Below are positions 19,525 to 25,410 of a DNA stretch of 35,976 nucleotides, in pieces (position 1 is the stretch's first letter; each line of letters begins with the position of its first letter). The stretch comes from a bacterium (GTDB taxonomy: Bacteria; Patescibacteriota; Minisyncoccia; Minisyncoccales; DAOWIS01): assembly GCA_030640805.1 (NCBI GenBank), contig DAOWIS010000021.1, positions 1 to 35,976 on the forward strand. The letters run 5' to 3'. Both the position numbers and the translations under genes were made by a program. Below the pieces are notes generated by a model. The model saw nothing but the letters and a program-made list of their open reading frames with translations. It was not told the DNA's origin and searched no databases.

Positions 19525-20499
19525 ATGAGAGTTTTTTTCCTTAGAGGGAAACAAAAGGAGTTTATTTATACAATTCTTTCAAAGATTTCAGTTAAAGAAG
19601 CTGCCGCTTTGTGTAATCTTTCTAAAAGGACAATTAGGGACTGGCGTCGTGAAAAATTTTCAGTGGATCTTAATGCCCTTCGCAAATTATGTAAAAAAAC
19701 CGGTGTTTCATTTCCTTCTAATATTAAATTAAGGGACCGTTATTGGTACGTAGGTTATGGTTCATCTGCTGGCGGTATAGCTGTATTTAAAAAATATGGT
19801 AGAATCGGAGGAGATCCAGAATATCGAAAAAAGAAATGGTATGAATGGTGGGAGAAGAAAGGGAAATTTATTGATAAGTCTATATTTAGAAGAAAGCCGA
19901 TAAAAAAACCTGATAAGTCTACTAATTTAGCGGAGTTCGTTGGAATCATTTTAGGAGATGGAGGCATAAGCCCCAGACAAGTTCATATAACTTTACATAA
20001 TAAAGATGACAAAGAGTATATAAAGTTTGTCTGTAAACTTATAAGAGATCTTTTTCAAAGAATACCTAGTGTAAACAAACATAGCAATCCTTTAGTTTCT
20101 AGGATAGTTATTTCTAGTATGGATTTAATCGATTGTTTGATTGAATTGGGTTTAAAAATGGGGAATAAAGTTAAACAACAAGTGGATATCCCAGATTGGA
20201 TTAGGCAAAATAAGTTATATTCGATTGCTTGCGTTCGAGGACTTGTTGACACTGATGGATGTGTTTTTACCCATCGCTACAAAGTAAATAGTAAACTTTA
20301 TAGTTATAAAAAACTTTCCTTTACAAGTTATTCTAGACCACTTCGAAAATCTGTGTTTAATATTTTGAAAAGCAATGGATTAAATCCTAGATTGGCTCAA
20401 AATAGAGATGTGCGCCTTGATAGTATAAAAGATATGCAAAGATATTTTCAATTTATTGGGTCTCATAACCCAAAACACTTGAATAGATATTTTAAATAA
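19525..20499 (+). CDS. stand-alone LAGLIDADG homing endonuclease with N-terminal helix-turn-helix
   Basis: Two LAGLIDADG-like helices: LAEFVGIILGDGGIS and IACVRGLVDTDGCVF; N-terminal VKEAAALCNLSKRTIRDWRREKF HTH. Confidence 0.85.
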   Translation: MRVFFLRGKQKEFIYTILSKISVKEAAALCNLSKRTIRDWRREKFSVDLNALRKLCKKTGVSFPSNIKLRDRYWYVGYGSSAGGIAVFKKYGRIGGDPEYRKKKWYEWWEKKGKFIDKSIFRRKPIKKPDKSTNLAEFVGIILGDGGISPRQVHITLHNKDDKEYIKFVCKLIRDLFQRIPSVNKHSNPLVSRIVISSMDLIDCLIELGLKMGNKVKQQVDIPDWIRQNKLYSIACVRGLVDTDGCVFTHRYKVNSKLYSYKKLSFTSYSRPLRKSVFNILKSNGLNPRLAQNRDVRLDSIKDMQRYFQFIGSHNPKHLNRYFK

Positions 20500-20527: not shown

Positions 20528-20616
20528 GGAGGAGTCGGATAATTGGTCATTCCACGAGTTTGCTAAACTCGCGCGGTGTAAAAAGCCGCTTGTGGGTTCG
20601 AGTCCCACCTCCTCCG
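20528..20616 (+). tRNA. tRNA-Ser(GCU)
   Basis: Acceptor GGAGGAG/CTCCTCC, discriminator G, anticodon arm CGAGT-TTGCTAA-ACTCG, long variable arm, T arm GTGGG-TTCGAGT-CCCAC. Confidence 0.93.
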
Positions 20617-20960
20617 CTATCCTTCGCCAAGGCTACGGAATAGCTTCGCTAAATCAAATTATGTATTATGTTTATATTTTATGGAGTTCAAAATCTAAGA
20701 TTTTTTACTCTGGTTATTCAGAGAATTTAAGAAAAAGATTGGAAGAACATAATAAAGGATTATCTAAAGCTACAGTTCCTCATCGTCCTTGGAAGATCGT
20801 ATTCTATGTAACATTTGAAAGTAAAAAATTAGCCAAAGATTTTGAACTCTATCTCAAAACAGGATCAGGTAAAGCATTTGCTTACAAAAGATTAGTTGAT
20901 GTAGCCTTGAAGAAGGATACTAAGAGGTGATAAGGTATTCCGAAGTTTTAACGAAGGATA
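20617..20960 (+). mobile_element. putative tRNA-3'-end-targeting element: terminal inverted repeats around one GIY-YIG ORF
   Basis: TIR-L TATCCTTCGCCAAGGCTACGGAATA (20618-20642); TIR-R TATTCCGAAGTTTTAACGAAGGATA (20936-20960); 20 of 25 complementary. Flanking direct repeat CCCACCTCCTCCG (20604-20616) / CCCACCTTCTCCG (20961-20973). Confidence 0.75.
20661..20930 (+). CDS. GIY-YIG nuclease domain protein (UPF0213/YhbQ-like)
   Basis: MYYVYILWSSKSKIFYSGYSENLRKRLEEHNKGLSKATVPHRPWKIVFYVTFESKKLAKDFELYLKTGSGKAF; start taken at MYYVYIL, since the longer ORF start lies inside the tRNA. Confidence 0.9.
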   Translation: MYYVYILWSSKSKIFYSGYSENLRKRLEEHNKGLSKATVPHRPWKIVFYVTFESKKLAKDFELYLKTGSGKAFAYKRLVDVALKKDTKR

Positions 20961-21110
20961 CCCACCTTCTCCGTTGTCTTGAGTGACTGTTCAAACGACC
21001 GAGCGGGGTCAAAAAATCGCCAAGAAGCATTCTTTTATTTTGTTTGAATTTATGCTAAAATAAAATTGTTATTATGGATATTGTTCTTTTAAATTAGAAA
21101 GGAGACTAAA

Positions 21111-22785: not shown

Positions 22786-22976
22786 TCGTGGACTTAAACC
22801 TGCCTGCCGGTAGGCAGGTCTGGTATGTGAATATACTCCTCTTGTTGCTGGAATATGGTTCTGACGTTGTCCACGATGTCCCGTTGTCTTGAGCGCAGTT
22901 CGAGAGACCGGGAGGAACCTCGAATCGGAATAAAGACTCGTAAAAAAGCCCTGATCTGTAAGAACAGGGCTTTTTT
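22786..22976 (+). ncRNA. structured repeat copy A, ending in an intrinsic terminator
   Basis: Closing helix TCGTGGAC (22786-22793)/GTCCACGA (22869-22876), hairpin GTAT-GTGAAT-ATAC, then GTTCGAG/CTCGAAT hairpin and terminator AAAAAAGCCCTG...CAGGGCTTTTTT (22942-22976); most of 22786-22883 is repeated at 24952-25029. Confidence 0.5.
22799..22818. repeat. palindromic insertion CCTGCCTGCCGGTAGGCAGG inside repeat copy A
   Basis: Near-perfect palindrome present in copy A and absent from the same point in copy B. Confidence 0.8.
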
Positions 22977-24951: not shown

Positions 24952-25057
24952 TTGTGGACTTAGATCTGGTATGTAAATATACTCATTTGATTGCTGGATT
25001 ATGGTTCTAACATTGTCCACGATGTCCCGCATAAATTTTTGCATCAGCAAAAATTTA
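24952..25057 (+). repeat. structured repeat copy B plus terminal hairpin
   Basis: TTGTGGAC...GTCCACGATGTCCCG homologous to copy A; then TAAATTTTTGC-ATCA-GCAAAAATTTA (25032-25057). Confidence 0.75.
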
Positions 25058-25099
25058 TCCCTAAATACAAATTACTCACACTAATTACAAAAAGATAAT

Positions 25100-25184: not shown

Positions 25185-25224
25185 CTTTCTTAGGGGGTCG
25201 CGAAAAACAGTTTTGCCAGATATG

Positions 25225-25257
25225 GTACCGTAGGTTCGAATCCTACTCCCGCCGCCA
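25225..25257 (+). pseudogene. 3' fragment of another tRNA (T arm + acceptor + CCA), no 5' half found
   Basis: GTAGG-TTCGAAT-CCTAC TCCCGCC G CCA; the matching GGCGGGA 5' strand is not present upstream. Confidence 0.7.
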
Positions 25258-25357
25258 TCCTTCGCTATAGCTACGGAATGGCTATTATGTATTACGTAGC
25301 CTCGAAGAAGGATATTGAGAGGGGTGAATAGGTATTCCGAAGCTTTAGCGAAGGATA
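25258..25357 (+). mobile_element. internally deleted (MITE-like) copy of the GIY-YIG TIR element
   Basis: TIRs ATCCTTCGCTATAGCTACGGAAT / TATTCCGAAGCTTTAGCGAAGGATA around a 14-codon remnant ORF MYYVASKKDIERGE*; perfect 16-bp direct repeat CCTACTCCCGCCGCCA at 25242-25257 and 25358-25373. Confidence 0.8.
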
Positions 25358-25372
25358 CCTACTCCCGCCGCC

Positions 25373-25410
25373 AACAACAAAAAACGGGGTTAACCCCGTT
25401 TTTTGTTGTT
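25373..25410. terminator. intrinsic terminator, 19-bp perfect arms
   Basis: AACAACAAAAAACGGGGTT/AACCCCGTTTTTTGTTGTT. Confidence 0.85.

Follow-up and report, generated by a model that had tools for sequence, protein, structure and literature searches.

A shortened GIY-YIG element with hairpin ends behind a tRNA pseudogene in a Patescibacteria genome

We found that a 102-bp unit, hereafter copy 2, is a shortened copy of a mobile element of the ultra-small Patescibacteria that sits at tRNA 3' ends and carries a GIY-YIG nuclease. It lies in a window of 35,976 nucleotides, the whole stretch of DNA analysed, which is contig C8 of a 721-kb genome (49 contigs, 97% complete). The locus is best explained, and we consider this probable, as the deletion remnant of a small, low-copy, hairpin-ended Patescibacteria element that has a GIY-YIG nuclease as its only gene and inserts at tRNA 3' ends. 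At the level of sequence comparison, the boundaries of the element, its single gene, the duplication of tRNA nucleotides 61-74, the empty sites, the switches of host tRNA and the hairpin pairing are established, and we infer that the nuclease is the mobility enzyme.

The two copies in the window

Copy 2 is flanked by two exact copies of the tRNA end CCTACTCCCGCCGCCA (16/16 identity in the repeat analysis of the window), which confirms the duplication reported by the sequence-only reading (Table 1). The bases CA at 25256-25257 serve both as the first two bases of copy 2 and as the end of the left repeat. Its inverted ends (25257-25286 versus 25327-25356, 30 nt) are 87% complementary; the outermost bases of the left hairpin (25254-25255) are tRNA nucleotides 73-74, and the final two bases of the right hairpin are C61-C62 of the tRNA-end repeat. 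When copies 1 and 2 are aligned base by base, as the sequence-only reading had proposed, the ORF of copy 2 lacks 231 bp of the copy 1 ORF (20661-20930) in frame. The deletion corresponds to copy 1 coordinates 20670-20900, with a 2-nt ambiguity, and joins ATGTATTA(T/C) to GTAGCC. Direct reading bears out a remnant ORF between inverted ends whose nuclease body was deleted while both termini were kept. Identity to copy 1 is 89% over 27 nt for the C-terminal remnant and 86% over 43 nt for the right end, and, because the ends of copy 2 differ from those of the intact copies, copy 2 did not arise recently from copy 1. Copy 2 separates the terminator downstream from the tRNA-like sequence, and locus L117, compared with the empty site L119, is arranged alike.

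Copy 1 lies behind an intact tRNA-Ser(GCT), with an inexact flanking repeat (CCCACCTCCTCCGC versus CCCACCTTCTCCGT), and a third, intact copy is found on contig C38, its ORF being 61% identical to that of copy 1. Directly upstream of tRNA-Ser(GCT), window positions 19525-20499 hold a 324-aa ORF with weak matches to LAGLIDADG homing endonucleases and to a helix-turn-helix (HTH) domain.

Table 1. Features of copies 1 and 2 and of their host sequences in the window
Feature	Coordinates	Strand	Basis
tRNA-Ser(GCT), host of copy 1, intact	20528..20617	+	tRNA calling (ARAGORN/Rfam)
Copy 1 left repeat (tRNA nucleotides 61-74)	20604..20617	+	sequence reading, repeat catalogue
Copy 1, full-length, 343 bp	20618..20960	+	sequence reading, repeat analysis
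Copy 1 GIY-YIG nuclease gene, 89 aa, sole gene of the element	20661..20930	+	PF01541, 60.8 bits
Copy 1 right repeat CCCACCTTCTCCGT	20961..20974	+	sequence reading, repeat script
tRNA pseudogene (probably tRNA-Tyr-like), host of copy 2	25194..25257	+	not called by ARAGORN/Rfam; fold; by-eye comparison
Copy 2 left direct repeat (tRNA nucleotides 61-76)	25242..25257	+	exact 16-bp repeat
Copy 2 left-end hairpin, GC/CATCC...GGAATGGC (slash, border to the tRNA end)	25254..25282	+	covariation (37 left ends), folds
Copy 2, solo and internally deleted, 102 bp	25256..25357	+	direct reading and repeat analysis
Remnant ORF ATGTATTACGTAGCCTCGAAGAAGGATATTGAGAGGGGTGAATAG (MYYVASKKDIERGE, then stop), in-frame deleted nuclease gene	25287..25331	+	direct reading; repeats shared with copy 1
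Copy 2 right-end hairpin, GGTATTCC...GGATA/CC (slash as above)	25331..25359	+	covariation (37 right ends)
Copy 2 right direct repeat (second tRNA end)	25358..25373	+	exact 16-bp repeat
Perfect palindrome with T run, terminator	25373..25410	+	inverted repeat, 19 nt, 100%

The sequence-only reading had taken the host of copy 2 for a second tRNA target; the tRNA-end repeat is there, but the host is not an intact tRNA. The T arm and the 3' strand of the acceptor are present at 25194-25257 and the D arm and anticodon region are gone. As neither ARAGORN nor Rfam calls a tRNA there, as the fold consists of the T arm and a variable-arm-like stem only rather than a cloverleaf, and as none of the listed tRNA genes of the genome is a called tRNA ending in CCTACTCCCGCCGCC, the host of copy 2 is assigned to the tRNA pseudogenes. 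It is probably tRNA-Tyr-like (GGGGTCGCG...CGTAGGTTCGA-TCCTACTCCCG), judged by eye beside the L097 tRNA-Tyr; an intact tRNA-Tyr(GTA) is found elsewhere in the genome at C13:11484. Rfam accepted nothing over the element and the pseudo-tRNA, and its Plastid-psbl-rps4 match (27.6 bits versus a gathering threshold of 68) was set aside as a reflection of the T-arm-like sequence.

Sites and mobility of the element family

Relatives of the nuclease were gathered from the same order and from named genomes, with nearly all named-genome matches falling in Patescibacteria. We observe about 40 distinct tRNA-sited loci across Patescibacteria in which a GIY-YIG gene of about 89 aa, or its deletion remnant, lies directly behind a tRNA, with tRNA nucleotides 61-74 recurring past the right end, usually exactly. 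In most of the nuclease relatives first gathered, the gene has the direction of the tRNA in front of it, and the final 13-17 nt of that tRNA are found again, unchanged, past the right end. The element is approximately 330-450 bp long, with two related hairpin ends and one gene, and its host tRNAs are Gln, Asn, Ser, Gly, Glu, Trp and Asp. This one architecture at about 40 loci supports the earlier proposal of a shared element with defined ends at independent tRNAs. The repeat starts in nearly all copies at C61, the first base of the 3' strand of the T stem, directly behind the T loop, and ends in most at nucleotide 74, while elements starting with CA restore the CCA end of the tRNA. Counting from the catalogue, the repeat is exact over 14 nt or more in about 27 of the roughly 40 tRNA-sited copies; shorter exact repeats of 12-13 nt occur in four, single-mismatch repeats in six, and repeats with two or three mismatches at L174 and L179, and about ten tRNA-sited copies have an imperfect or shortened repeat. 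Occurrence within the order is patchy, the protein being found in 11 of 247 genomes at E<=1e-20 and the end motif in 15 of 247.

As a control, tRNA genes without the left-end motif behind them were searched for a repeat of the 61-74 14-mer within 700 bp, which was found in 1/73, the sole positive being L063, itself an element locus. Where the motif is present, 22/35 tRNAs show the 14-mer repeat by script, which mis-registered several others, and the end motif read backwards has 0 matches in all genomes searched; the architecture of copy 2 is therefore not due to chance. An independent set of 384 class genomes gave 18 left-end matches outside the window, of which 12 lie directly behind a called tRNA, the remaining six being one tandem partial copy and five unexplained matches that include hairpin-only remnants; the copies thus sit largely at tRNA ends and not at random sites, as the sequence-only reading would have it. 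Tandem partial copies are found at L031 and L046. At L063:1271-1830, we observe a tRNA-Gln, a terminator-like hairpin, a second tRNA-end copy, the element and a third tRNA-end copy, the insertion being behind a tRNA-end copy and not behind the tRNA itself. The hosts at L062 and L104 have no tRNA call, and the sequence upstream of the element resembles the intron in the tRNA-Asn of this genome, so that one tRNA may hold an intron and the element together. An intron of about 280 nt, which looks like group I, interrupts the tRNA-Asn(GTT) of this genome (G000 C17:1700-2500, L164).

Upon comparing orthologous sites, filled in one genome and empty in another, the unit behaves, as far as sequence can tell, as a mobile element. 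In G144 a tRNA-Gln is followed directly by a terminator, with no element, whereas its congener G143 has, behind the tRNA, first the element, then a second 14-nt tRNA end and then a terminator that is like that of G144 in 23/25 bases. The tRNA-Gln linked to ftsX carries the element in G150 but not in the congeners G145, G149 and G151. Filled and empty sites are represented by L117 versus L119 and by L105 versus L106-L108, and, since they come from different species of one genus, none of the empty sites is base-exact. Across the 29 typed rows of the nuclease tree, the type of host tRNA has to change at least 11 times, a rough figure because the resolution of the tree is poor (2 of 27 branches starred), and despite these changes the repeat of tRNA-sited copies is always from the isoacceptor class of the present host. 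No nuclease relatives were found in IMG/VR, the PLSDB plasmids or the INPHARED phages, hence nothing points to a phage or a plasmid as the vector.

These observations bear on ordinary homing, in which the nuclease would cut tRNA ends and a donor carrying the same tRNA would supply the element through homologous recombination. Homing is a classic role of GIY-YIG enzymes, and spread among orthologous tRNAs would look alike, as in an all-tRNA-Gly group of four; homing, however, copies a fixed site, creates no 14-nt duplication and does not move an element between tRNAs of different sequence with the end of the new tRNA on both sides. With no intron or intein involved, and weakened by the changes of host tRNA and by the paired hairpin ends, this reading is quite unlikely.

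A search for further solo copies returned L082, L092 and L179 in relatives, each with a tRNA-end repeat, in addition to hairpin-only copies behind tRNAs at L099, L101 and L176. Copy 2 has the structure of a MITE, that is, terminal inverted repeats and a target duplication with no complete gene, and it retains both ends and a perfect repeat; together with the solo copies in relatives, this speaks for movement in trans by an intact copy, which would make copy 2 a true MITE, as the sequence-only reading had suggested. We consider this unlikely, however, and did not uphold the suggestion of a trans-mobilisable, MITE-like derivative: there is a single solo copy in the genome instead of several near-identical ones, the junctions of L082, L092 and L179 all differ, no solo with the junction of copy 2 occurs in 246 relatives, the ends of copy 2 are unlike those of copy 1, and a deletion in place explains the same picture equally well.

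At seven copies (C38, L044, L051, L059, L060, L064 and L083), a tRNA 61-74 end lies on the right of the element and non-tRNA sequence on its left, a pattern that simple target-site duplication, as part of our preferred explanation, does not account for. In all seven, the left flank closes with the same four bases as the right-hand tRNA end, and several left flanks have GTTCYAANNTCGTCC twelve bases ahead of the element, at T-loop-like spacing (compare TTCGAATCC-N12 in tRNAs). Either the tRNA end was carried by the element or the left end triggers adjacent deletions, and both would fit. A doubtful though possible reading is accordingly that the right tRNA end is part of the mobile unit, like an att core, with a circular or single-stranded intermediate recombining with a matching tRNA end, and that off-target sites need match only the last four bases (71-74). 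The right-hand 61-74 end of the seven copies agrees with it, as does the right flank of the C38 copy, which equals the end of the resident tRNA-Gln(CTG) over 16 nt. It predicts mixed repeats upon a host switch, yet across the at least 11 switches no end of a foreign isoacceptor is seen at tRNA-sited copies; moreover, the element encodes no integrase, and deletions adjacent to the left end are an alternative for the off-tRNA copies.

A repeat of about 120 bp is one non-tRNA left neighbour of the element, being found to the left of the C38 (L004) element and, without the element, at window positions 22816-22883 and 24962-25029, at L123:2293 and at L174:2899. It comprises a stretch resembling a promoter, a T-loop-like GTTCYAACNTCGTCC and an end with varied hairpins or terminators behind it, and its other strand reads as a conserved peptide ending (IVDDVRT...EYIYIPDL). 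Behind one of its copies, at window 25029-25058, lies a second hairpin family (ATAAATTTTTCG...CTCAAAATTTGAG), also observed directly behind tRNA 3' ends in L133 (tRNA-His) and L148 (tRNA-Asp).

The other GIY-YIG genes of the genome (C7, C25, C3 and C28) were rejected as members, having different surroundings without such repeats. One of them (L001, C7:16736-16945) lies behind tRNA-Gln(TTG) at C7:17037-17108, with a long unrelated palindrome between (GCCGCGT...ACGCGGC), and is perhaps a second lineage of tRNA-associated GIY-YIG elements. Short CCTTCGCTAAAGCTTCGGAGG-like palindromes, of which the genome has many inside protein genes (L014, L015, L016, L019 and L020), resemble half of an element end but were likewise not counted, lacking the paired end and the tRNA-end repeat; they recall REP or Rickettsia palindromic elements.

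The hairpin ends and the nuclease

Next, we consider the ends, for which the consensus is GC/NATCYTTCGCYAARGCTWCRGAATNGC on the left and RGTRNTCC...GGAYA/CC on the right (the slash marks the border to the tRNA end). Both ends fold back, and the stems take in two tRNA bases each, 73-74 at the left end and 61-62 at the right. Across 37 right ends, three variable pairs are 100% Watson-Crick (best of 2,000 shuffles, 82%), with exchanges that include A-T/G-C/C-G at one position, C-G/A-T and C-G/T-A; the inner arms were picked by eye next to a fixed motif, a choice somewhat biased towards pairing. Watson-Crick pairing holds for 96% of the variable pairs in 37 left ends of the common class (best shuffle, 70%), a count that leaves out a smaller class, mostly at tRNA-Gly, whose stem stays within the element. 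The left inner arm follows the tRNA discriminator, GC being matched by GC and AC by GT (L027, L058 and L059); among the five left ends at AC-ending tRNAs, the other two (L176 and L184) have an unchanged inner arm and A-C at the outermost pair. Single short ends have unremarkable DNA folding energies (z about 0), and so the pairing claim rests on covariation and not on energy. The right-paired bases C61-C62 hardly vary among tRNAs, and the T arm of a tRNA likewise has GG-loop-CC at its top, for which reason we suggest that the right end is a mimic of this arm.

The hairpins could instead be RNA signals, the unit being a 3' trailer for tRNA processing or termination with the nuclease gene as a passenger, a reading that we judge very unlikely. 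The left hairpin does start at the tRNA 3' end and include nucleotides 73-74, hairpin-only copies lie behind tRNAs at the three loci named above, and tRNAs have terminators behind them, but the second tRNA end, the matching right hairpin and the patchy occurrence are left unexplained, and congeners live without the unit.

The copy 1 nuclease belongs to the GIY-YIG superfamily (PF01541, 60.8 bits versus a cut-off of 22.6), and the catalytic residues Y5, G18, R26, H30 and E62 are invariant in 27 members. In the AlphaFold2 model of the 89-aa protein (mean pLDDT 91), the Foldseek top match is UPF0213 BH0048 (1ZG2, E 1.9e-3), also the closest solved structure by profile (E 5e-10). The nearest structures after UPF0213 are SLX1 and I-TevI, with Foldseek E-values of only about 2e-3, and none of the NCBIfam models is above cut-off. 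The Ssn nucleases, which are specific for certain single-stranded, repeat-associated sequences, belong to the UPF0213/COG2827 proteins, which are likewise small stand-alone GIY-YIG domains associated with palindromic repeats; the difference here is that the gene, the paired hairpin ends and the tRNA-end repeat form one transposon-like unit. GIY-YIG nucleases are known from homing, restriction and repair and, together with a reverse transcriptase, from Penelope retroelements; to our knowledge, no GIY-YIG protein acting alone is a known transposase.

Proposed mechanism and relation to known systems

Under the explanation that we prefer, an element that inserts at tRNA 3' ends, the nuclease would recognise the folded single-stranded hairpin ends and the matching T-arm hairpin in the tRNA gene, with the inner hairpin arms acting as short guides for the flanking bases. 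It would cut one strand immediately 5' of C61 and the other immediately past nucleotide 74, and host repair or replication would complete the insertion, with the tRNA preserved and a 14-nt repeat added; ligation or resynthesis would demand host enzymes, which counts against this explanation. Copy 2 would have lost its nuclease gene through the 231-bp in-frame deletion, before or after insertion. More tentatively, and with somewhat more doubt than belief, we propose a new class of autonomous DNA elements that have a stand-alone GIY-YIG nuclease as their only protein, move via folded single strands and pair the inner arms of their hairpins with C61-C62 and 73-74; in the same proposal, since the hairpin arms read the flanking tRNA nucleotides, the T arm of any tRNA gene would be a landing site.

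When set against known systems, the element as an assembly fits no known class tested; its nuclease fold is already known. I-TevI-type GIY-YIG homing endonucleases share the catalytic fold and residues and the site-specific spread, but not the paired hairpin ends, the duplicated target or the many host tRNAs, and the element has no intron or intein; homing-endonuclease elements are without terminal repeats or target duplication, whereas ends and repeats are found here at about 40 loci. Tyrosine-integrase tRNA islands resemble it in their tRNA 3'-end target, intact host tRNA and duplicated tRNA end; the element, however, is about 340 bp long, its repeat of about 14 nt starts exactly at nucleotide 61, and no tyrosine or serine integrase is encoded within its 330-450 bp, the single ORF being the GIY-YIG gene of about 89 aa. 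IS200/IS605 (IS608) and TnpAREP/REP systems likewise have hairpin ends, base pairing between element and target, small palindromic derivatives and one small nuclease (PMC5934647, PMC6006769, PMC8266576). In contrast to IS200/IS605 and REP/RAYT, the element has no Y1 (HUH) transposase, its only ORF being GIY-YIG, and has a 14-nt direct repeat where direct repeats are not expected; its related inverted hairpin ends and tRNA targets also differ from those of IS200/IS605 and REP. Endonuclease-containing Penelope retroelements are similarly mobile with a GIY-YIG nuclease, but the element is without reverse transcriptase and has DNA-type inverted ends (PMC3846280). No prior description of the element was found in the literature, which is weak evidence, as most subscription papers were outside the scope of the search.

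Overall, if this proposal is true, mobility by a GIY-YIG nuclease alone would be a new transposition chemistry, the small GIY-YIG genes of Patescibacteria would have a function, and the T arms of tRNAs would form a compact, self-described target set for a hairpin-guided nuclease. As the hairpins covary, the guide idea is open to a direct in vitro test with short oligonucleotides.
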